Positions 714-14,523 of a stretch of DNA of 44,586 nucleotides are shown in pieces. Numbering within the stretch: the first letter of the stretch is position 1; the number at the start of each line of letters is the position of its first letter. The notes below the pieces were generated by a model that was given only the letters and a program-made list of their open reading frames with translations, did not search any database and was not told the DNA's origin. The DNA is from Desulfovirgula sp. (GTDB taxonomy: Bacteria; Bacillota; Desulfotomaculia; Desulfotomaculales; Desulfovirgulaceae), in the NCBI GenBank assembly GCA_020725525.1, contig DYEX01000126.1, positions 1-44,586 on the forward strand, given 5' to 3'. A program made the position numbers and the translations under genes.

Positions 714-997
714 AAAAACGGTCAAAGAAAATCATCCGGCTGAAATCCATTCTCGATGCCCCACTTGATTACCTGCACCTTCGCCACGAGCGGGAACGGG
801 CAATCTACCTGGCCGCATACTGGCTGGGCGTGGCGGACGGGATTGACATTGCCATGAAGTCAATTCAGGACTTCGCGGAACTGCGGAAAATGCCGGGGCA
901 CCCTTTCCCCGGTTACCGGTGGCTGGTCCTGGTACTGGGCCTGGGAGAAGATGGGGCAAACTTCCTGCGCTGGTTGGATAAGCGGATGCTGAGTTAA
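710..997 (+). CDS. Hypothetical phage protein, basic N-terminus
   Basis: 95 aa. The ATG overlaps the previous stop codon (ATGA), so translation is probably coupled. The first 12 residues are very basic (KKRSKKIIR), followed by a predicted helical region. No recognised domain. Position between an ATPase-like gene and a nuclease suggests a replication/recombination-module accessory protein, which is inference from context only. Confidence 0.6.
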   Translation: MKKRSKKIIRLKSILDAPLDYLHLRHERERAIYLAAYWLGVADGIDIAMKSIQDFAELRKMPGHPFPGYRWLVLVLGLGEDGANFLRWLDKRMLS

Positions 998-1092
998 GAT
1001 TAGAGTTATACCCAGCTCAGGGGTTAGAATACTGAGACTGTAACAAAGGCCCAGTTTGAGGTAAAAAGCAAAGACCGGGAGGCGGGAAGGCG

Positions 1093-1338
1093 GTGATTCG
1101 CGTGGATGACGTTGCCCGGCTGCTGGCCCAGGACAACCGGGAAAAGAGACAGGCACGGGGCGGCCAGGCCGTGGGCAAGAAATCCCCCCGGGTGGTGCTG
1201 ATGCCGTCTGTGCTGGAAGACCGGCGAGGCCCGCCCTGGTGGCAGGTGGCCCCGCCCCTGGTGCGGGTGGACATCACAACCGGCCGGGTGCTGGTCTACA
1301 GGTGGCCGGTGGCGGAGGGCTGGGAGGTGATAAAGTGA
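1093..1338 (+). CDS. Hypothetical phage protein
   Basis: 81 aa from a GTG start; a purine-rich GGGAGGCGGGAAGG stretch precedes it at a workable distance. N-terminal half is charged and helical, C-terminal half contains a beta-rich segment (VRVDITTGRVLVYRW). The stop overlaps the GTG start of the nuclease pseudogene (GTGA). No family recognised. Confidence 0.5.
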   Translation: MIRVDDVARLLAQDNREKRQARGGQAVGKKSPRVVLMPSVLEDRRGPPWWQVAPPLVRVDITTGRVLVYRWPVAEGWEVIK

Positions 1339-1629
1339 CCAACTACAGGCGGGGTTATGCAGCAGAGCGCAAGGCCATGAAAGTGCTGGAGGCAGCCGGC
1401 TATGTGGTGGCCCGGACGGCGGGGCAGCCACAGCCCTTTTGACGTAGTGGCCGTCGGCCCCGGCGGGGTACGGCTGATTCAGGTTAAGCGGGTAAAATTC
1501 GGCCGAATCCGGGTGACGGTGGAAGCGGCCCTAGAGGAATTGCGACAGGTGCCCAAACTGCCCGGTGTTTCCCGGGAGATATGGGTTTGGGTCGATGGTG
1601 ATGGCTGGGTAGTGCAAGAGGCCGTATGA
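1335..1629 (+). pseudogene. Holliday-junction-resolvase-like PDDEXK nuclease, frameshifted
   Basis: From the GTG at 1335 the protein starts NYRRGYAAERKAMKVLEAAG, then ends early at a TGA at 1440-1442. Skipping one base in the G-run at 1421-1424 moves into a frame that continues GSHSPFDVVAV, then RLIQVKRVK, and ends at 1629. Together these give the order of an archaeal-Hjc-like / phage PDDEXK nuclease: an N-terminal Glu, the Asp in PFDVVAV and the Gln-Val-Lys catalytic strand. The break is therefore a +1-base indel inside the active-site region, inactivating unless it is a sequencing error. A family member normally resolves branched DNA before packaging. Confidence 0.75.
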
Positions 1630-2063
1630 ACAAAGGAGGCTTGAAATTGTCCACACTCCCCGCATACATCCGGCGGTTTTGCAAGGACGTGCTGCGTCAA
1701 TACCCGCTTTTCAAGCAGGAGCTGGCTGCACTCGAAGAAGAGAAAAAGGCCGTGGCCGAATCCCTGCCCGTGGCCACGTGGCGGGAGGCGGCCAGCAGAC
1801 AGGCCATCGGTGACCCCACCAGCAGGCAGGCTTTCCGGCTGTTGCGGCTGGAAGAGATGTTGCGGCAGGTGCGTTTCTACGTCCAGGCTGTGGAGGACCT
1901 GCTTGCTTACCTGGACGAAGAACAGCGAAAACTGGTGGAACTGCGCTTCTTCGACAGTTACCCTCCCTGGCGGGTGGCCCAGGAACTTGGGATGAGCGAA
2001 TCAAGTTTTTTCTGGTACGAGAAGGAAATCCTCACCCTGCTGGCCCATAGGCTGGGGCTGTAA
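1626..2063 (+). CDS. Sigma-like / ArpU-type phage transcriptional regulator
   Basis: 145 aa. The C-terminal part (about residues 95-145) has a helix-turn-helix like sigma-70 region 4: LVELRFFDSYPPWRVAQELGM followed by SSFFWYEKEIL. The N-terminal two thirds is helical. This architecture matches small phage late-gene activators placed just before the packaging module (ArpU/RinA-like), which is consistent with the cos-like element about 1.1 kb downstream. The start overlaps the preceding stop by 4 bases and has AAAGGAGG just inside it; the exact start could instead be the TTG a few codons downstream. Confidence 0.7.
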   Translation: MNKGGLKLSTLPAYIRRFCKDVLRQYPLFKQELAALEEEKKAVAESLPVATWREAASRQAIGDPTSRQAFRLLRLEEMLRQVRFYVQAVEDLLAYLDEEQRKLVELRFFDSYPPWRVAQELGMSESSFFWYEKEILTLLAHRLGL

Positions 2064-2083
2064 ATGGAAAGGGGGTGAAGAAC

Positions 2084-2248
2084 ATGGACCTGGCGAAGCA
2101 GGTTGCAGCGTTTGCCAACAAACTGCGCTTCGGTATCACCGAAGACGAAACTACCAGTAAAGCTACCGGCAAAAAACAGAGTATTGCTGAAGTTATTGCG
2201 GCGTATGCAAACAAGTACAGGCAAGCAAAACAAAACAGGAGGGGATAA
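2084..2248 (+). CDS. Small hypothetical phage protein, 54 aa
   Basis: ATG at 2084 with AAAGGGGGTG upstream, TAA at 2246-2248. The protein is hydrophilic (begins MDLAKQVAAFANKLRFG, ends AYANKYRQAKQNRRG). The repeated AxYANK/FANK motif near both ends suggests a helical hairpin. Its end carries the ribosome site for the next gene (AGGAGGGG). No family recognised. Confidence 0.55.
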   Translation: MDLAKQVAAFANKLRFGITEDETTSKATGKKQSIAEVIAAYANKYRQAKQNRRG

Positions 2249-2250
2249 CC

Positions 2251-2916
2251 ATGTTTGGTAAAATGGGATTAACCGAGCTGGTTGAGGCATTTCAGAAAAA
2301 GAATAGCGAAAGACGCAGCAAGATTAAAAACAGAATTGCCGGTCTTGAGGCCGAGGCCGCACAAGTTACCGCTAAAATCGAAGCAACCACAAAGCAGCTG
2401 GTGGATTGCGAACTAGCGGGAGATGACGCAGGCCAGGCTAAATGCCAGAAGCAAATCCGCGAACTGCAGCTTGAGCTGGACAGAGTGCAGGGGCTTGCCC
2501 AGGCTTACCGGGCGGAGCTTCAAAAAGTAGGCTACGACAAAAAGGACCTGGAAGCTATCAGGACTGCCGCACAAAGGGAGCGCGAGACCCGGTTCAGGAA
2601 GTTTGAAGAGCTAAGGGCCGAGAGGGAGAATGTACGGCAGCAAATTAAGCAGCTGGAAAGCAAACTTGAACAGCTTGACCGGGAAATCGACGCGGCCAAA
2701 ACCAAAAAAGAGGCGCGGGCGTTGATGGCCATAGCAACGTTCATTGACCCGCGAATTGAAAAACTTCCCAGTTATGAACACGAGCAGTTTCTGGATTACT
2801 GGATCGCGGGACAAGATGAAGCTATGGAACAAGCTCTGGCCCGGTATGCGAAGCCCGAGGAACCGGAGCGGCGAATCACTTACCTGAATCAACCGGAGAA
2901 GATTGTTCATGCTTGA
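2251..2916 (+). CDS. Phage coiled-coil protein of unknown function
   Basis: 221 aa with a strong AGGAGGGG ribosome site. Residues about 15-165 form long heptad-rich coiled coil (repeated EAEAAQVTAKIEATTKQL and QLESKLEQLDREIDAAK types), followed by a short globular tail. No enzymatic motif. The position upstream of the cos-like site, where accessory replication genes lie, gives no firm function. It could be a structural or DNA-handling accessory protein. Confidence 0.65.
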   Translation: MFGKMGLTELVEAFQKKNSERRSKIKNRIAGLEAEAAQVTAKIEATTKQLVDCELAGDDAGQAKCQKQIRELQLELDRVQGLAQAYRAELQKVGYDKKDLEAIRTAAQRERETRFRKFEELRAERENVRQQIKQLESKLEQLDREIDAAKTKKEARALMAIATFIDPRIEKLPSYEHEQFLDYWIAGQDEAMEQALARYAKPEEPERRITYLNQPEKIVHA

Positions 2917-2930
2917 AACCTATGAGGGGG

Positions 2931-3071
2931 ATGGCTTTGGACAAGCAAGTTGTCAGATGCCCCTTTTGCGGCGAAGTGACCATCAGGCAGGAATTTGGCT
3001 TCTGGAAGTGTCCGGACTGTGGCTGCGAGATATGGCCGGAGGAAGAAGAAATAGAGGCCCGGGAGGAATAG
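2931..3071 (+). CDS. Small zinc-ribbon protein, 46 aa
   Basis: ATG at 2931 (an in-frame ATG also occurs at 2922); GAGGGGG directly precedes it. The protein has two CxxC knuckles, CPFC and CPDCGC, 16 residues apart, the pattern of a rubredoxin-type zinc ribbon, then an acidic tail rich in Glu. Small ribbons like this (for example Com-like proteins of phages) bind nucleic acid or a partner polymerase. The last codons and the next 20 bases (ending GCGCACGAGAA) recur after the excisionase-like gene at 8502-8530. Confidence 0.65.
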   Translation: MALDKQVVRCPFCGEVTIRQEFGFWKCPDCGCEIWPEEEEIEAREE

Positions 3072-3111
3072 TCCCCAGGCGCACGAGAAGGCCCTGGAAG
3101 GCGAGAAACTG

Positions 3112-3148
3112 ACCGGGCAAGGTATTCCCCCCCTACCTGCCCGGTTTT
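3112..3148 (+). terminator. Rho-independent terminator after zinc-ribbon gene
   Basis: ACCGGGCA (3112-3119) pairs with TGCCCGGT (3138-3145), followed by TTTT. The same stem sequence recurs in the terminator at 8555-8587. It would end the early operon just before the cos-like element. Confidence 0.6.
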
Positions 3149-3180
3149 CCGGGGCTTTATAGGGCCATCTACAGCCTTCT

Positions 3181-3240
3181 GGCGGGTCCTTCCAGAGAGG
3201 TGAAGGGTTGCGGGTCTCGCGAGCCCCGAAATTTGTCTAG
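3181..3240 (+). other. cos-like element, copy 1
   Basis: A 60-base block beginning GGCGGGTCCTTCC and centred on a dyad with TCGCGA flanked by GGG and CCCC. The GGGTCCTTCC box followed by a GC-rich dyad resembles cos regions of lambda/HK97-type phages and sits where a cos site is expected, directly after the late-regulator and zinc-ribbon genes and in a gene-free gap. A near-identical block lies at 9137-9196 (about 54 of 60 bases the same, by eye). The cos function is inferred. Confidence 0.5.
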
Positions 3241-3330
3241 GTGAGAACTTTTCTCATTAGGGTTTTCTTTCCAGTGTGGTAACTAGACGGTTATTGATGA
3301 TGAAAATAAAGAAACTGGAGGGTTCATAAC

Positions 3331-3648
3331 ATGGAAATCACATTACAAAAACCTTTTGTGAAAGACGGAAAGACCATCGAGAAACTTACTTTAAACCTCG
3401 AATCCTTAACCGGCCACGACCTGGTAAAGGCTGAGAAAGTCGCCAGGACGTTCGGAGAGGAAGCAGCCAACCCCTTATTTACGCAGACCGGCTTGGCCGT
3501 GGTTGCCGCCCAGGTTTCCGGTTTTGCAGTAGATGACATTCTCGAACTGAGTGCGCCTGACTTCCTCCTGGTGACCAACACGGTGGGCAATTTTTTATTC
3601 GGTTGGGTCTTGTCGGCGGTAGTACAATCAAAGATTTACGAAAAGTAA
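3331..3648 (+). CDS. Phage tail assembly chaperone (P2 gpE / Mu gp41 type)
   Basis: 105 aa, ATG with GGAGGG upstream. Pattern EITLQKPFVKDGKTIEKLTL, then a helical part and a SAPDFLLVTNTVGNFL segment, is that of the Phage_TAC_7 family, which keeps the tape measure protein soluble during tail assembly. It lies directly upstream of the tape measure gene as in most siphophages and myophages. Near its end it carries the canonical slippery heptamer T TTT TTA in the correct register, so part of the translation should shift -1 and continue into the downstream extension. Terminase, portal and capsid genes that should separate it from the cos-like element are missing. Confidence 0.8.
   Translation: MEITLQKPFVKDGKTIEKLTLNLESLTGHDLVKAEKVARTFGEEAANPLFTQTGLAVVAAQVSGFAVDDILELSAPDFLLVTNTVGNFLFGWVLSAVVQSKIYEK
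3591..3597 (+). promoter_or_regulatory. Programmed -1 ribosomal frameshift site (T TTT TTA)
   Basis: In the zero frame the codons are AAT TTT TTA TTC, so the heptamer fits X XXY YYZ exactly. A -1 slip enters a frame that is open to the TAA at 3768-3770 and encodes the short ORF typical of P2 E'. P2 uses the closely similar T TTT TTG. A GC-rich stretch downstream (GGTTGGGTCTTGTCGGCGG) could help as a stimulatory structure. Confidence 0.75.
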
Positions 3649-3770
3649 TCCTGGCAATGGCCCGATACCTATCAACTTCCGTTGAATTCTGGCTGAACAT
3701 GCCGCTTGGCGAACTGGTTGAGTGGGTCGAAATAGCGGCAGAAACTGAAAAAAACCGTAAGCAGACTTAA
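3591..3770 (+). CDS. Frameshift-accessed extension of the tail assembly chaperone (E'-like)
   Basis: The -1 frame has no stop from the slippery site to 3770. Translation by slippage would give a fusion of about 146 aa instead of 105. The extension ends with EFWLNMPLGELVEWVEIAAE-type sequence, the Trp/Met-Pro-Leu...Glu-Leu pattern seen in the short downstream ORF of tail chaperone pairs. An internal ATG at 3657 could also start a 37-aa product, but it has no clear ribosome site, which favours frameshifting. The longer product normally contacts tail tube subunits and the tape measure. Confidence 0.65.
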   Translation, partial: FFIRLGLVGGSTIKDLRKVILAMARYLSTSVEFWLNMPLGELVEWVEIAAETEKNRKQT

Positions 3771-3831
3771 AGCGAAATCCGGCCGGCGGCCTGGTGCTGC
3801 CGGCCAATAATCAATCCAGGGAGAGATTGAA

Positions 3832-6357
3832 ATGACCCGAACCTTCGAAATCGCTTTTCAATTAGCCGGGAAAATAAATTCCTCCTTCGGCAATATGTTC
3901 ACCTCCGCCAGTGCCCGGATGAACCAGCTTAACCAGCGCATTATCTCCCTGAAATCCGAGATGCGCGCCCTGGAGAGGGCACAGCGGGCGGGAACCATCG
4001 GCGCTCAGGAGTACGCCGAAGCATATGCCCGCCTGGCCGAACAACTCCAGCGCGTCGAAGCCGTCCAGCGGAGGCTGGCAATAACAACGAAGCTGGACAG
4101 GCAGCTTACCAATATCGGAAAAAAGGCACTGGGTTACATGAAGTTGCCGGCGATGGCTGCCATGGGAGTCACGGCAATATCTGCACCCATTATTTTTGCC
4201 GGCTCCCTTTCCAAAGCCATGGCTTTCGAGGCCCAACTGTCCTCCATCCAGGCCCTGACCGGCCTGACCGGTGAGCAGATGGCGAAAATGAAAAACCTGG
4301 CCCTGGAAATGGGCGCAAAGACAAAGTATTCTGCCCTGGAAGCAGCACAGGGAATCGAAGAGCTGCTTAAAGCCGGCTTGACGCCGGCAGCGGTTCAAGC
4401 GGGCGCGCTGGAAGCCGCCTTGAACCTGGCGGCGGCCGGTGGCCTGGAGCTGGCCGAGGCGGCCGAAATCATGTCTACAGCTTTGAACGCTTATAGAGCC
4501 GATAACATGCGGGCTTCCGATGCTGCTGACATTCTTGCTGGCACTGCGAACGCTGCGGCAACCTCTGTAGAAGAACTGCGCTACTCGTTGGCTTCCGTAT
4601 CGGCGGTGGCTTCCGGCGTGGGCATGTCGTTCAAAGACACAAATATAGCTCTTGGCCTTTTCGCCAATAACGGGCTAAAGGGCTCCGATGCCGGGACATC
4701 CCTGAAAACAATGCTGATGAACCTGCAGCCGTCTACAAAGCAGCAGATTGATTTATTTAAAAAGCTGGGCATTATAACAAGGGACAATACAAACCGGTTC
4801 TTTACGGCTGAAGGAAAACTTAAATCCCTGGAAGAGATCGCAAGCATTTTAAGGGAGGCCCTTAAGGATTTAACCGATCAGCAGCGCATGGCTTATTTAG
4901 AGGTTATGTTCGGGTCGGACGCCATCAGGGCCGCGAACATCATCTATAAAGAAGGCGCGGAAGGGGTTAAAAAATTCGCGAATGAAATGACAAAATTCAC
5001 CGCCCTGGAAGTGGCCCGGCAGAAAATGAACAATGCGGCGGGAGCTGTGGAGCAGTTCAAAGGGGCTCTGGAGACACTGCAAATATCTGCAATGTATCCG
5101 TTTCTGCCATTGGTGAAAAGGATTGCCGAAGGTGCGGCGGACCTTACTCAGAGGGTGGGTCCCCAAATAACCGCCTCAATGGAGAGTGCGGCTCAAAAAG
5201 TGGAGGATTTCTTTGCCAGGCTCTCTGCGGACGAAAAATTCCAGCAGATGAACTGGGGCGAGAAAATCAATTACGCCCTGAGAGAGTTGATCCAGGCAAT
5301 CAATGAATGGCTGAGCGGTGGGGGCGGCAAACAGGTAAAGGCGTTTGGGGAGCAGATGGGCACGTTTATTTCCATTGGCCTGGAGGGTGCCGCCCCCATA
5401 CTGGTGAAGTCTGCCGAAACAGCGGGGGAAATCATGGGCAAGGCCGTCATTTCCGCATTTGGGGCGGCGTTGCAAAGCAGCCCCTTTGGTGCAATAATTG
5501 TCGGTGCCCTGGGTGGCGCTGCCATAGGCTCCGTGGTCCCAGGGGTAGGGACGGCTGCCGGTGCCCTGGCCGGTGCGGGAGCCGGCCTGGCTTCGTATGT
5601 CGTGTCAAAATCGGTAAGTGATATTTCGGCTCACCACGAGAAGATAAAGGACGAAATTCCCGAAGGGTATATCACGCGCCCCGCCCCGTTTTCCATCGGG
5701 GCTCCCCGCAAACGTGTCGGCGTTGGCGATCTTCGCGCCATTGAACAACACGCCCGTGGCGGTATTCTCACCAGGCCCCACCTGGGGATGGTGGCTGAGG
5801 CCGGACCGGAAGCGGTCATCCCGCTGACTCCCGGGATGAGGAGCCGTGCGCTGGCGTTGTGGCAGCGGGTAGGCTTCATGCTGGGTGCAGCACCTGAAAT
5901 GCTCATACCTGCCGGGCAGGCAGTAATCACTCCGGTGCTGGGTGCGGTACCGAGGTTACCGGAACTGGCCGGAAGTGCGGTTTACCGGGCAACCGTTACC
6001 GCACCCCGTTTGCCTGAAATTAAAGCCTACGCCCACGGTGGTATTCTCACCAGGCCCCACCTGGGGATGGTGGCTGAGGCCGGACCGGAAGCGGTCATCC
6101 CGTTGGACGGTTCCCGGCGTTCCGTTTCACTCTGGCAGAAGGCCGGGGAGATGCTGGGGGTTGTCCCAGCACGCACCGAAGGCGAAAATACCATCAATAT
6201 CAATGTCACCTTTGCCCCGGTTGTTCATGGCGCCGGTCCCGGCACAATGTCGGCGCTGAAAGAGCAGCAACGATACTTCGTAAAAGAATTAGAAGAGGTG
6301 GTGGAGCGGAAAGTAAAAGAAATGACCCGCCAAAAAAGGCGGCTGTCTTATGAATAG
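3832..6357 (+). CDS. Phage tail tape measure protein (TP901 type)
   Basis: 841 aa, ATG after GGGAGAGATTGAA. Residues about 20-90 are coiled coil; about 120-330 carry the TP901 core (KMKNLALEMGAKTKYSALEA region through GSDAGTSLKTMLMNLQ); about 540-590 are a Gly/Ala-rich hydrophobic stretch suited to membrane passage. Two copies of the GGILTRPHLGMVAEAGPEAV motif lie in the C-terminal third. The protein sets tail length and is expelled during DNA injection. It appears intact, but no tail genes follow, so the tail module ends here. Confidence 0.9.
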   Translation: MTRTFEIAFQLAGKINSSFGNMFTSASARMNQLNQRIISLKSEMRALERAQRAGTIGAQEYAEAYARLAEQLQRVEAVQRRLAITTKLDRQLTNIGKKALGYMKLPAMAAMGVTAISAPIIFAGSLSKAMAFEAQLSSIQALTGLTGEQMAKMKNLALEMGAKTKYSALEAAQGIEELLKAGLTPAAVQAGALEAALNLAAAGGLELAEAAEIMSTALNAYRADNMRASDAADILAGTANAAATSVEELRYSLASVSAVASGVGMSFKDTNIALGLFANNGLKGSDAGTSLKTMLMNLQPSTKQQIDLFKKLGIITRDNTNRFFTAEGKLKSLEEIASILREALKDLTDQQRMAYLEVMFGSDAIRAANIIYKEGAEGVKKFANEMTKFTALEVARQKMNNAAGAVEQFKGALETLQISAMYPFLPLVKRIAEGAADLTQRVGPQITASMESAAQKVEDFFARLSADEKFQQMNWGEKINYALRELIQAINEWLSGGGGKQVKAFGEQMGTFISIGLEGAAPILVKSAETAGEIMGKAVISAFGAALQSSPFGAIIVGALGGAAIGSVVPGVGTAAGALAGAGAGLASYVVSKSVSDISAHHEKIKDEIPEGYITRPAPFSIGAPRKRVGVGDLRAIEQHARGGILTRPHLGMVAEAGPEAVIPLTPGMRSRALALWQRVGFMLGAAPEMLIPAGQAVITPVLGAVPRLPELAGSAVYRATVTAPRLPEIKAYAHGGILTRPHLGMVAEAGPEAVIPLDGSRRSVSLWQKAGEMLGVVPARTEGENTININVTFAPVVHGAGPGTMSALKEQQRYFVKELEEVVERKVKEMTRQKRRLSYE
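5761..5823 (+). repeat. 63-bp direct repeat inside tape measure gene, copy 1
   Basis: Starts GGTATTCTCACCAGGCCCCA and ends ATCCCG; identical by eye to 6040-6102, in the same reading frame, encoding GILTRPHLGMVAEAGPEAVIP. Confidence 0.85.
6040..6102 (+). repeat. 63-bp direct repeat inside tape measure gene, copy 2
   Basis: Second copy of the block at 5761-5823, 279 bases (93 codons) downstream. Identity at third codon positions points to recent duplication or gene conversion. Confidence 0.85.
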
Positions 6358-6403
6358 TTTAAACGCATGATGTTGATACCGGGCAGGTTTTTGGTTATTT
6401 TGG

Positions 6404-6433
6404 TTGCGAACACCGGTTTTGTTTTGGTATAAT
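6404..6433 (+). promoter_or_regulatory. Sigma-A-type promoter for candidate small RNA
   Basis: TTGCGA (6404-6409) and a perfect TATAAT (6428-6433) with an 18-base spacer. No ORF starts downstream before a strong terminator at 6489-6513. Confidence 0.6.
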
Positions 6434-6439
6434 TTAGCT

Positions 6440-6513
6440 ACGGTTTTAATTTCCAAGGTTTTTAATTTCCAATTTACCCTCCTTCGAGCCGGGACTAAGC
6501 CCCGGTTTTTTTT
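6440..6513 (+). ncRNA. Candidate small RNA of about 75 nt
   Basis: The transcript predicted from the promoter at 6404-6433 would start near 6440 and end at the T8 tract after the hairpin at 6489-6505. It has a twofold direct repeat TTTTAATTTCCAA and an unpaired ACCCTCCTTCG stretch whose CCTCC core is complementary to Shine-Dalgarno sequences, a common seed of Gram-positive regulatory RNAs. No ORF of useful size lies within it. The alternative is that only the terminator matters, ending the tail operon. Confidence 0.45.
6489..6513 (+). terminator. Rho-independent terminator with T8 tract
   Basis: CCGGG (6489-6493) pairs with CCCGG (6501-6505), 7-base loop, followed by eight T. It ends the candidate small RNA and any read-through from the tape measure gene. 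Confidence 0.75.
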
Positions 6514-6567
6514 GTTGACCGCCCAGCCGGCGGGATAAAAAGCAGAAGCCAGAATTAAAAAGCAGTA

Positions 6568-6600
6568 AAGGCGCCGGGTATTTCCCAGCGCCTTGTTTTT
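6568..6600. terminator. Convergent terminator hairpin
   Basis: AAGGCGC...GCGCCTT stem with inner GGG/CCC pairs at 6568-6594, then TTGTTTTT on the plus strand. It abuts the stop codon of the minus-strand pseudogene at 6599, so it may work in both directions. Confidence 0.6.
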
Positions 6601-6973
6601 ATTGGCCGAAATGTTCTTTTATACAGGCGTTAATTTTGCTAGCAGACTGCTCTTTATACGCTTTTACGAAGGCGTCAATCTCCTGAGTTAATACGGGCAA
6701 AACATCGTACGGTATCATTTCTAGCAGCCTGAGCCTAAAGTAACTAATCTCTGCTTTATCGTCTTTCCAGTTTTCATAATTATGTGGCTTGTACTCCCTC
6801 AGTAATTTTCTACGTCGCCTTTCGTGTGACAGAGGGCTGTGTTCTTTTTGCCACCTGCGGGCCAGTCAGGCCAGGTCTCTAAGAAACACGATTAAGCCCG
6901 CCGGGTATAAACGCAACAATTCAGCCATCATCTCCTGTACGGAAGTTTCCTGTTTTTCAGCGGTTACCGCCAT
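6599..6973 (-). pseudogene. Hypothetical prophage protein interrupted by in-frame TGA
   Basis: From the ATG at 6971-6973, preceded by AAAGGGGG, the frame reads 35 codons (ending FLRDLA), meets a TGA at 6866-6868, then stays open for 88 more codons (LARRWQKEHSPLSHE ... KINACIKEHFGQ) to a TAA at 6599. The continuity of coding character through a single stop indicates a nonsense mutation, probably TGG (Trp) to TGA. Nothing cysteine-like surrounds the stop and no hairpin of SECIS type is apparent, so selenocysteine is unlikely. It is the last gene of the ImmA-type operon. No family recognised. Confidence 0.65.
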
Positions 6974-7059
6974 AATTAAGATCCCCCTTTCAAGATTTTT
7001 CAGGACAACCGAAAAGGCTGCCATTTTTCTGTCCATGCAGTTCTTTTGTCCGGTTTTCG

Positions 7060-7434
7060 CTAGGGCTGGCCTTTTCTTACCCAGTGAAGAAGCCGGTTAG
7101 CGAAGTAGTCTGCCTCCCTTTCGTTTTTGGCTTTTAATTCTTTTGGTGAATCGAAGTTGTACGCCGATCCTCTATGCAATGCGTAGTGGCCTAGTTCATG
7201 AGCCAACGTGAACTGCCTTTGCTCTTCCGGGAGACTGCTGTCAACAACTATGGCATTGAACTCATTTTTCCCTATGTAAAATCCTCTTACCTCCCCTTCT
7301 AAAGGAGTGCCCCTGAAATCATCCGCAAACATTTTAATGCCCCTTTTGGTCCCAAGGTGAACAAGCCTTTGCCATACCGGGTTGTTGCTTATCTTGATAG
7401 CAGGGATAAACATATCTTCTTTCAACGGAATCAT
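7060..7434 (-). CDS. ImmA/IrrE-type metallopeptidase
   Basis: 124 aa. ATG at 7432-7434 chosen because GGAGGAGG lies 8-10 bases upstream; a longer in-frame start at 7455 would lie upstream of that ribosome site. It carries the zinc protease motif HELGH (His79, Glu80, His83) and a downstream ExxAD (about residue 107), the hallmark of the IrrE N-terminal-like peptidase family. In ICEBs1 ImmA cleaves the ImmR repressor to induce the element. No HTH repressor partner is visible next to it; the two upstream proteins would be the candidates for its substrate. Confidence 0.85.
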   Translation of the reverse strand: MIPLKEDMFIPAIKISNNPVWQRLVHLGTKRGIKMFADDFRGTPLEGEVRGFYIGKNEFNAIVVDSSLPEEQRQFTLAHELGHYALHRGSAYNFDSPKELKAKNEREADYFANRLLHWVRKGQP

Positions 7435-7465
7435 CAACGGCTTCCTCCTCCACAAAAAATAACCA

Positions 7466-7921
7466 TTATTTCACGTGAAATAATCCAGGGCCCCCGACCG
7501 ACTTTTCCTTCTCTTCCTTTGTGAGGCCGCGCCAGAGCAAAGACCCGTCCTTGTTGAAGCAGGCAATGGGGACACCCGTGAATTTCAAAGCCCTGGCAAA
7601 GCCATTTCCAAATGGGTTGTCTACCAAAATCTCTCCGGTATTACGGTTTACACCCCAAAGCTTCTCCAGAAACGTGCCGGGATGGCTTTCAAACCAGCAA
7701 AGAGTATAAACAAACCGGCTGCGGGGTAACATGTCGAGATCAATAACCACCAGGGAATCAGCAGGAATTGGTTTGTAGATTAAGGTGTTTATTTGTTCCC
7801 TGATGCGGTAGACTGCCAGCCTCCGGCCTGCGAAGTAAAAGGCGTCCTGCGGCGGTACTTTAAGCCCGTCCGCTTGTCCATCCGCATTGAACGTTATGTT
7901 TGTTTTCTCTACCACGGGCAT
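7466..7921 (-). CDS. Hypothetical prophage control-region protein, 151 aa
   Basis: ATG at 7919-7921 with AAAGGAGGCAA upstream; overlaps the previous gene by 13 bases. Predicted mostly beta (ADSLVVIDLD, FVYTLCWFES, GEILVDNPFG). The alternation of strands around DSLVVID and GEILVDNP loosely recalls an S24/LexA-type C-terminal domain, but I cannot identify the Ser-Lys dyad and do not claim it. Downstream gene is the ImmA-type peptidase, so it may be part of the lysogeny switch. Confidence 0.6.
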   Translation of the reverse strand: MPVVEKTNITFNADGQADGLKVPPQDAFYFAGRRLAVYRIREQINTLIYKPIPADSLVVIDLDMLPRSRFVYTLCWFESHPGTFLEKLWGVNRNTGEILVDNPFGNGFARALKFTGVPIACFNKDGSLLWRGLTKEEKEKSVGGPGLFHVK

Positions 7922-8181
7922 ACAGATTGCCTCCTTTTATCTGTTGCACCGGCCAGCATTTGTGCTTCCTCTTCCCGCCGGGCTAAAAAACTTTCCGCTT
8001 TTTCAACCACTTCCCGAAGTAACTTTTCGTCCTCCGCTACTGCTCTGGGAACGTAAAGTCTGACCCTCCCGACCTCCCCAGTTTCCAGGTTCAGGCTTAG
8101 TTCCGGAGCTGGAAAATCCCCCTCCATTACCACGATTTCATGAATGCGGCTCTTCTTTGTGCACCAGGTTAGTACGTCCAC
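7909..8181 (-). CDS. Hypothetical prophage protein, first gene of ImmA-type operon
   Basis: 90 aa. The GTG at 8179-8181 is chosen because AGAAGGGGGGC lies just upstream; an upstream in-frame TTG would fall beyond the minus-strand promoter at 8238-8267 and is therefore unlikely. Sequence is beta-rich at first (IHEIVVMEGDFPAPELSLNL, VGRVRLYVPRAV), then a charged helix of about 30 residues. No recognised domain. Confidence 0.6.
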   Translation of the reverse strand: MDVLTWCTKKSRIHEIVVMEGDFPAPELSLNLETGEVGRVRLYVPRAVAEDEKLLREVVEKAESFLARREEEAQMLAGATDKRRQSVCPW

Positions 8182-8237
8182 GCAAAAACTGCCCCCCTTC
8201 TGGTTATGTATTAGAATGTAACTGTCTGTATGTGTAT

Positions 8238-8267
8238 AGTATAGTATTCCTCTCTTTGCAATGTCAA
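8238..8267 (-). promoter_or_regulatory. Minus-strand promoter of the ImmA-type operon
   Basis: Read on the minus strand: TTGACA (8262-8267), 18-base spacer, TATACT (8238-8243). Lies about 60 bases ahead of the GTG at 8181. Back to back with the plus-strand promoter at 8275-8304. Confidence 0.7.
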
Positions 8268-8274
8268 CGGTTTT

Positions 8275-8304
8275 TTGACAAAGGGATGAAGGCTTTGGTA
8301 TACT
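8275..8304 (+). promoter_or_regulatory. Plus-strand promoter of the excisionase-like gene
   Basis: TTGACA (8275-8280), 18-base spacer, TATACT (8299-8304). The two -35 boxes are only 7 bases apart and form an inverted repeat (GTCAA ... TTGAC, 8263-8279), so one protein bound there could control both directions. Confidence 0.75.
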
Positions 8305-8329
8305 GTTGCATGAGAAGGAGGGAATAGCC

Positions 8330-8512
8330 ATGCAGTTACTGACCATAGAAGATGTTGCAGAAATGTTGAAGGTTTCAAAGCGGACCGTTTACGAGTGGAT
8401 ACGGGCGGGCAAACTGGAAGCCGTCAAAGCGGGGAGCCTGTGGCGAATATCGGAAGAGGCTTTGCAGGACTTTTTGGTAAAGGGAAGCCGGAAAAGCGGC
8501 GGGCAGGAATAG
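8330..8512 (+). CDS. Excisionase-like helix-turn-helix DNA-binding protein
   Basis: 60 aa from the ATG at 8330, with AAGGAGGG upstream; a TTG at 8306 is too close to the -10 box. Residues 1-50 are a typical HTH_17/excisionase fold: LTIEDVAEMLKVSKRTVYEW, then IRAGKLEAVKAGSLWRI. Such proteins bend attachment-site DNA for integrase or act as small regulators. It sits divergently from the ImmA-type operon and about 1 kb from the attR, fitting a Xis/Cro-like role. Confidence 0.8.
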   Translation: MQLLTIEDVAEMLKVSKRTVYEWIRAGKLEAVKAGSLWRISEEALQDFLVKGSRKSGGQE

Positions 8513-8554
8513 CCCCCAGGCGCACGAGAATGGCCCAAATTTGCGAGAAAAAAA

Positions 8555-8587
8555 ACCGGGCAGAAATCCTACTGCCCGGTCTTTTTT
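8555..8587 (+). terminator. Rho-independent terminator after excisionase-like gene
   Basis: ACCGGGCA (8555-8562) pairs with TGCCCGGT (8573-8580), followed by CTTTTTT. The stem is the same as at 3112-3145, part of a duplicated gene-end segment. Confidence 0.8.
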
Positions 8588-9136
8588 GTGCCCTTTTAAG
8601 GCCATCTGGCGGCCCAAAACCGCAAGCAAGTATCCCCGAAACCTGCCCAGCCCGCACCAACCGGGCACGAGGCGGCCCGCCTGCTTTACGCCGGATCAAA
8701 TCTCAGCTTCCTGGTGCGAAGATTGCGAAGCAAGTTTCGCACCAATAGCTGGAATGTAACCAGGCCCGCTTATTCCGGAAATAATGGCCTTTTCCCTGCC
8801 ATTCGCTACGCTTGATTTGCTTCTTCGCGCGAACTAGTAGTATCGAAGTAGGCGGGCGGCGGGGGTGCCCGCAGCCCCCAGGCAAATCGCGGCCTGGAGG
8901 GTGCAAAGCCCCCCTTTTGGGACACTTCCAGGCGGTATTACTCATACACGCTGGTTGGGTATTACGTGGCCAGCCTTCAGTGTGCCGGTGCGGGACACTA
9001 GTACACAACACTAGTATCCCTTTGAATTGTGCAGATTCTGCAGAGTAAATCTGTCTGCGGTTATAATGCAGGCGGCTGTAAGCACGAACCCTTTTCTGCA
9101 GAGTGCAGAGTGAGTAGTAAAGGAGAAAACGAACCT
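8588..9136. other. Gene-free stretch of prophage with short repeats
   Basis: No ORF here has a ribosome site or recognisable protein. It holds GC-rich inverted segments around 8850-8920 (GGGGGTGCC, GGGCAC-type pairs, GCCCCCC) and a heptamer ACTAGTA at about 8833, 8997 and 9010. The last two are 6 bases apart, giving ACTAGTA C ACAAC ACTAGTA. Possibly a degraded origin, protein-binding region or decayed gene; nothing firmer can be said. Confidence 0.4.
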
Positions 9137-9196
9137 GGCGGGTCCTTCCAGGAAGGGTAGGGGTTGCGGGTCTCGCGAGCCCCGAAATTCGTCTAG
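9137..9196 (+). other. cos-like element, copy 2
   Basis: Begins GGCGGGTCCTTCCA and contains the same TCGCGA-centred dyad and CCCCGAAATT...GTCTAG end as 3181-3240. Differences cluster in the purine-rich linker between the box and the dyad, leaving the two outer blocks conserved, as expected of a bipartite protein-binding site. Confidence 0.5.
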
Positions 9197-9353
9197 CGAT
9201 AGGGCTGAAAAATTAATTTCCGTTTCCGTTTTAGGGCCTTTACAGAAAGGATTGAAGCCCTGGAAAATCAATGTTCTGCGGTTTTTGCCTGCTGTTTTCT
9301 TCCCGCCTACGAATTACGAAACCCATTCTGCTGGCGCGTGATCCCATCATCCA

Positions 9354-9442
9354 TTTTGGGAGCAGCAAGGCCTGGAGGCCGCGTGGCTGTAAGCGAAACT
9401 GGATTTTCGCTTTGGGAGCATTTTGGGAGCAGATTGGGAGCA
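9354..9442 (+). repeat. Four copies of (T)TTGGGAGCA near attR
   Basis: TTTTGGGAGCAG at 9354, TTTGGGAGCA at 9411, TTTTGGGAGCAG at 9421 and TTGGGAGCA at 9434, all in one direction, 110-200 bases inside the tRNA-Trp remnant. Direct repeats at this distance from an att core behave like the arm-type binding sites of tyrosine integrases. Function inferred from position. Confidence 0.5.
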
Positions 9443-9553
9443 AACACCCCAAAACGAAGCCAAAAACCACCCATTTATTCCCTGGTAGCTTCTAACAACA
9501 CAAGGTAAATCAAGCCTTTGCAAACTTCGCCAAACTATACAAAGGCCGTATTT

Positions 9554-9602
9554 CGGTCTCCAAAACCGTAGGTTGCGGGTTCGAGTCCTGTCTCCCCTGC
9601 CA
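9554..9602 (+). other. attR: 3' half of tRNA-Trp(CCA)
   Basis: From 9554 the sequence is that of a tRNA-Trp from the anticodon stem to the encoded CCA: CGGTCTCCAAAACCG (anticodon CCA at 9560-9562), a T-loop TTCGAGT, and the acceptor strand ending CTCCCCTGCCA. The base before it (9553) is T where the stem needs A, and no D-arm or 5' acceptor strand exists upstream. The remnant is followed by a terminator as a real tRNA would be. This is the displaced 3' end left when an element integrates; the intact tRNA-Trp should lie at the other end, left of the window. Confidence 0.85.
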
Positions 9603-9615
9603 GCCAGTATAAAGA

Positions 9616-14340: not shown

Positions 14341-14523
14341 TCATATTTCGTAAATTGAAATAGTCATTGTTCCTTTCTCAGGATCTTTAGTTAAACCAAA
14401 CATAACTTTCTTGTGCTTAAGGCTTTTATTTAAAAAATCAATTACCTTATACATTTCCGCATAGGGAGCAAAGCTCTTTGTGGCTATTAATTCTAATTTT
14501 CCCTCTTTTTCCTTTTCCTTCAT
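14341..14523 (-). CDS. ypmA: YpmA-like small protein (DUF4264)
   Basis: 60 aa. After a lysine/glutamate-rich start the sequence has YKVIDFLNKSLKHKKVMFGL and ends MTISIYEI, the recognisable core of Bacillus YpmA. Function is unknown. It ends 12 bases before the surE ATG and follows folE at a short distance with a GGAGGT ribosome site, so it is part of the same transcription unit. Confidence 0.75.
   Translation of the reverse strand: MKEKEKEGKLELIATKSFAPYAEMYKVIDFLNKSLKHKKVMFGLTKDPEKGTMTISIYEI

Follow-up and report, generated by a model that had tools for sequence, protein, structure and literature searches.

A promoter-like site, a short duplication and a T-tailed hairpin between converging genes of a Desulfovirgula prophage remnant: a probable terminator region

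Introduction

The C-rich small RNAs RoxS/RsaE, FsrA and CsfG of Bacillota end in a U-tailed terminator and are represented by Rfam models, and RsaE, FsrA and CsfG are conserved across species. C-rich regions are described for RoxS, FsrA and CsfG of B. subtilis, and RoxS is described as conserved (PMC8216469). Here, we analyse a candidate small RNA (sRNA) downstream of a phage tail gene of Desulfovirgula sp.; the window is the whole contig DYEX01000126.1, 44,586 nucleotides long. The candidate resembles these RNAs only in having a terminator and a C-rich motif that could pair with Shine-Dalgarno sequences. Its single C-rich motif is predicted to be half paired, and searches gave no sign of conservation: none of 112 other genomes in the class matched, and in a second set just 2 of 199 other genomes did, at the hairpin or 3' flank only. 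None of the Rfam models of RoxS/RsaE, FsrA and CsfG matched the candidate at the gathering score, nor were they among the 12 matches at E up to 10. For this bacterial group, a literature search on prophages and small RNAs yielded a single general review.

A second class of described elements, the intrinsic terminators between convergent operons, is matched by two T-tailed hairpins, one per strand, between facing stop codons. What sets the locus apart from such terminator regions is an extended -10 promoter-like site ahead of the + strand hairpin.

Results

The first ~9.6 kb of the window are a prophage remnant (Table 1), which bears out the location proposed by the first-pass annotation; host-type genes follow, the first being an elongation factor G homologue. 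The tape measure gene is the last recognised tail gene of the + strand, and the frames downstream of it lie mainly on the - strand. Among the remnant frames scanned, none was clearly a gene for terminase, portal or capsid; a scaffold family match to 2251-2916 stayed below the family cut-off, and terminase small subunit families matched the excisionase-like protein weakly (E about 0.001). ARAGORN reported no complete tRNA in the window. The tRNA-Trp fragment, whose identical counterpart in locus L056 sits inside a full tRNA-Trp, is probably the attachment-site copy at the prophage end.

Table 1. Coordinates of features in and around the candidate region
Feature	Position	Strand	Basis or remark
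Sigma-region-4 / transcriptional-activator-like protein	1626-2063	+	protein family searches
Tail assembly chaperone	3331-3648	+	profile search
Tail length tape measure protein gene (841 aa)	3832-6357	+	PHROG 1533, E 9.7e-101
Promoter-like site	6404-6433	+	10/12 consensus positions, TG present
Predicted ~74-nt transcript	6440-6513	+	inferred from sequence
Direct duplication GGTTTTAATTTCCAA / GGTTTTTAATTTCCAA	6442-6472	+	15/16 nt
C-rich motif CCCTCCTT	6477-6484	+	reverse complement of Shine-Dalgarno sequence
Intrinsic terminator-like hairpin with T8	6486-6513	+	starts 129 nt past the tape-measure stop codon
Terminator-like hairpin of the opposing strand	6568-6594	-	terminator-like site scan
Last frame of the opposing strand	6599-7036	-	in-frame TGA at 6866-6868
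M78/IrrE-type metallopeptidase	7060-7455	-	profile searches
Excisionase-like protein	8330-8512	+	profile search
3' part of tRNA-Trp	9554-9602	+	matches tRNA-Trp; 49 nt identical to L056 8758-8806

A genome of the same genus (G001, the source of L056) has the same prophage end at tRNA-Trp. Positions 15020-17771 of L056 align in three pieces to window 759-3272 at 91-97%; sequence around 995-1069 stays unaligned, and L056 carries ~110 additional nt near 2065. The part matching 759-3272 runs directly into a part matching 9278-9605 (94%), so that a ~6-kb segment with the tape measure gene and the candidate is missing there. The difference may be an insertion in the window or a loss in G001; since G001 lacks the segment (window 3272-9278), the remnants at the tRNA-Trp site differ by a whole module.

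The facing stop codons (6357 and 6599-6601) are separated by a gap of 241 nt that holds one terminator-like hairpin per strand. On the + strand, the hairpin has eight pairs, five of them G-C and the last three formed with T of the run, and the T8 ends at 6513, as the first-pass annotation had claimed; a G+C hairpin followed by a T run is thus found downstream of the last gene of its strand. We rejected a riboswitch or attenuator, as the + strand past the hairpin is antisense to the opposing frames and the next recognised + strand gene is the excisionase-like frame at 8330. A type I toxin was likewise rejected: the 21-codon frame at 6367-6432 ends in the -10 box and has no visible ribosome-binding site and no antisense partner.

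The promoter-like site upstream of this hairpin, which had been called near-consensus, has the -10 element TATAAT at 6428-6433 (6/6), with TG in the extended position and a perfect extended -10 TGGTATAAT at 6425-6433, a weak -35 element, TTGCGA at 6404-6409 (4/6), and a long spacer of 18 nt. In dinucleotide shuffles of 6358-6600, a region picked post hoc because it looked good, the promoter score was equalled on the + strand in 2 of 2000 cases and on either strand in 3 of 2000. The best promoter score of the intergenic region was 12 on the + strand vs 8 on the - strand, and the exact extended -10 TGNTATAAT has three sites in the window, both strands counted. The surrounding 3 kb show no enrichment of promoter-like sites (3 vs 2.4 expected) and hold 10 terminator-like sites vs 4.9 expected. 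The window has two pairs of promoter and terminator at a distance of 25-250 nt, vs 0.075 per shuffled window (40 shuffles); this excess is overstated and owes much to the terminators, because real DNA is terminator-rich (36 terminator positions window-wide vs 5.4 in shuffles; promoters 11 vs 5.5). A short transcript from the promoter-like site to the T8 is plausible from these elements. The fold of the predicted RNA is unremarkable (z -0.63; equalled by 45 of 200 shuffles), and the - strand of 6420-6620 folds slightly better than its shuffles (z -1.74, 13/200), mostly owing to the two hairpins.

The repeated sequence within the predicted transcript was confirmed: TTTTAATTTCCAA occurs at 6444-6456 and again at 6460-6472. 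A close repeat of 13 nt was equalled in 6 of 2000 dinucleotide shuffles of 6358-6600, and the window holds two other close 13-nt repeats. As a single motif with up to two mismatches, TTTTAATTTCCAA is found seven times vs 2.75 expected, a count reached in none of 100 shuffles; the five further copies have two mismatches each and are scattered over the window. Tandem Repeats Finder gave no row at the duplication at scores down to 30; the units are short and differ in length by one T. A direct duplication of 15/16 nt may have arisen by replication slippage. With only two short units 16 nt apart, a CRISPR-like repeat was rejected. The exact pattern of the double repeat was absent from the viral contigs, and the repeat pair with up to three mismatches was found nowhere else in its own genome nor in nine relatives.

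Is the C-rich motif available for pairing with messenger RNAs? The first-pass annotation had taken CCCTCCTT to be exposed, yet only its CCCT half is predicted to be unpaired (0.91-0.98); the CCTT half is mostly paired (unpaired 0.15-0.31), its partner in the minimum-energy fold being AAGG, where the two repeats meet. The promoter, repeat, motif and T8 hairpin are all present where they had been placed, and the exposure of the motif is the part of that description that could not be confirmed. Furthermore, CCCTCCTT occurs at chance level, with five copies in the window vs 2.8 expected (16 of 100 shuffles reach five). We predicted pairing of the 5' part of the RNA (6440-6486) with the start regions of 46 chosen frames of the window, nearly all drawn from 254 listed open reading frames with mechanically assigned starts (one start was entered as 8331, the true one being 8330). 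The mean pairing energy was not above that of shuffled RNAs (28 of 100 reached it), while the best duplex was reached by only 5 of 100; its predicted target is the start region of a 60-aa frame at 14341-14523.

Searches for relatives returned little. No Rfam family matched the candidate at the gathering score, and the 12 matches at E up to 10 were at chance level; the lowest E values, those of SorX (0.48), rseX (0.91) and MicF (0.92), were far under the gathering scores, and we rejected them as U-tail look-alikes. Searched against 200 genomes (its own included), 6358-6540 found itself and two short matches, in 2 of the 199 others; the first covers 30 query bases on the hairpin, the second 32 at the T run and 3' flank. 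Against 113 genomes of the class (its own included), 6358-6610 found itself alone (0 of 112 others), and no relative of the candidate appeared in the phage collection at E 1e-5 or in the plasmid collection at E 0.01. Tape-measure relatives are present in 18 of 60 genomes (its own included) and at eight viral loci, and their downstream gaps were compared solely through blastn of 6358-6610. In a sensitive blastn search of that region against 56 loci, with copies of the window itself left out, two matches lay at the hairpin flank (E 1.8e-4 and 0.001) and all remaining ones had E 0.5 or worse. A 19-nt core, AATTTCCAATTTACCCTCC, occurs at two loci in genome contigs and in degenerate form at four in viral contigs, two of the latter being identical over the stretch compared; within ~90 nt on each side, these six loci have neither the double repeat nor, by eye, the arrangement of promoter and hairpin. 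With a - strand query and E up to 1, matches turned up in 89 of 100 genomes; among those listed besides the window itself, all are short (best E 0.0012) and were taken as chance. As for the neighbours, the M78 peptidase had no relative in the viral contigs, and the frame at 7466-7918 had one weak match, with stops inside, among 298 other genomes.

Discussion

The probable explanation of this locus is, in our view, an ordinary convergent terminator region within a prophage remnant, which may also give a short RNA of no function. The + strand hairpin would most likely end tail-gene transcription coming from the left and the - strand hairpin the opposing transcript; with one terminator-like hairpin per strand in the gap, the hairpin at 6486 is accounted for without an sRNA. 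This reading is in line with the remnant surroundings, the absence of the segment from G001, the chance-level frequency of CCCTCCTT, the plain fold and the relatives sought and not found. Against it stands the promoter, the one element that it leaves unaccounted for, since a tail terminator needs none and the site is better than local composition predicts (3/2000); the best duplex (5/100 shuffles), the over-representation of TTTTAATTTCCAA (7 vs 2.75) and the encoded Hfq also speak against it. The promoter-like sequence may start an RNA of ~74 nt as well, and its presence makes such a short RNA plausible. If made, this RNA would most likely be a leftover or by-product that regulates nothing in trans, and it is best treated as ordinary.

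How likely, then, is a regulator? The first-pass annotation had described an mRNA-binding RNA with an anti-Shine-Dalgarno seed, and of this proposal the short transcript is plausible, the location in a prophage remnant is right, and the anti-Shine-Dalgarno role is not supported. A prophage trans-acting sRNA of ~74 nt that blocks Shine-Dalgarno sequences through CCCUCCUU and its U-rich 5' part, perhaps with Hfq, would make sense of the extended -10 promoter and the T8 terminator. Its C-rich motif recalls the C-rich regions reported for RoxS, FsrA and CsfG of B. subtilis (PMC8216469). An hfq gene is present in the genome and sRNA regulation is therefore possible in this organism, and there is one strong predicted duplex. 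However, the searched genome, class, phage and plasmid collections held no real relatives, the six loci that share the core lack the double repeat and any visible promoter-hairpin arrangement, the CCTT half is paired, the mean pairing to the 46 start regions is matched by 28 of 100 shuffles and the motif is at chance. We therefore regard this sRNA as unlikely. Its more specific form, a lineage-specific sRNA with its own promoter by the tail genes, in which a duplicated U-rich module and an anti-Shine-Dalgarno motif would silence host or phage mRNAs, appears more doubtful still. A trans-acting anti-Shine-Dalgarno function, for which the argument is the CCCTCCTT motif alone, is unsupported, and a regulatory sRNA in general is possible, if unsupported. 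As the proposed role depends on a motif that is of chance frequency, half paired and without known relatives, we assign the better part of the probability to the ordinary terminator region.

Two further readings turn to the opposite strand. There, AAGGAGGG could serve as ribosome-binding site for a gene, either small or broken, that starts with TTG at 6472 or 6456, a remnant to which the duplication and the junction with the tape-measure gene have done damage. Indeed, AAGGAGGG is followed by TAAA and, 4 nt on, by the TTG at 6472; a start codon lies 3-12 nt behind 10 of the 14 AAGGAGG in the window, this site included, where we estimate roughly 5 of 14 from random codon occurrence; and if the duplication were removed, the first TTG would come into frame with a 55-aa open reading frame at 6289-6456. 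Yet the frame from the first TTG has just eight codons, no relative of the 33 residues outside the tape-measure gene turned up at E 0.01 among 111 other genomes or at E 1 in the phage collection, a terminator-like hairpin (6568-6594) lies upstream, and the intergenic region offers no good - strand promoter; we find this gene improbable. Least credible, and in our view very improbable, is a cis-antisense RNA directed at read-through from the opposing genes: the RNA would be antisense to any - strand transcript reading past 6568, but it overlaps no recognised - strand gene, its end at 6513 is 86 nt from the stop at 6599, and the interval contains a terminator-like hairpin.

The main lesson of this locus is how readily a reverse-complemented Shine-Dalgarno sequence can pass for an sRNA seed; a working sRNA would add to the orphan regulatory RNAs of prophages.

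Several features of the surroundings were observed alongside. The - strand frame at 6599-7036 comprises 146 codons and is open to 6599 apart from its single TGA; the interruption may reflect nonsense mutation of a gene in decay or may separate two frames, and the part after the TGA has no PHROG match. In the tape measure gene, a 77-nt stretch that encodes part of the protein's C-terminal region (5750-5826) is duplicated at 6029-6105 (95% identity, 279 nt apart). Moreover, a G+C-rich element of 62 nt, GGGTCCTTCC ... TTGCGGGTCTCGCGAGCCCCGAAATT, is present on the + strand as two direct copies of 90% identity, at 3179-3240 and 9135-9196, which flank the ~6-kb tail/immunity segment; G001 has one copy at the corresponding site (L056 17679-17735). 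The element is also found in G008 (L061 8103-8162), with weaker matches in G017 and G075. Because it is placed after a late-regulator-like gene, its position suggests a packaging (cos-like) site or a recombination point.
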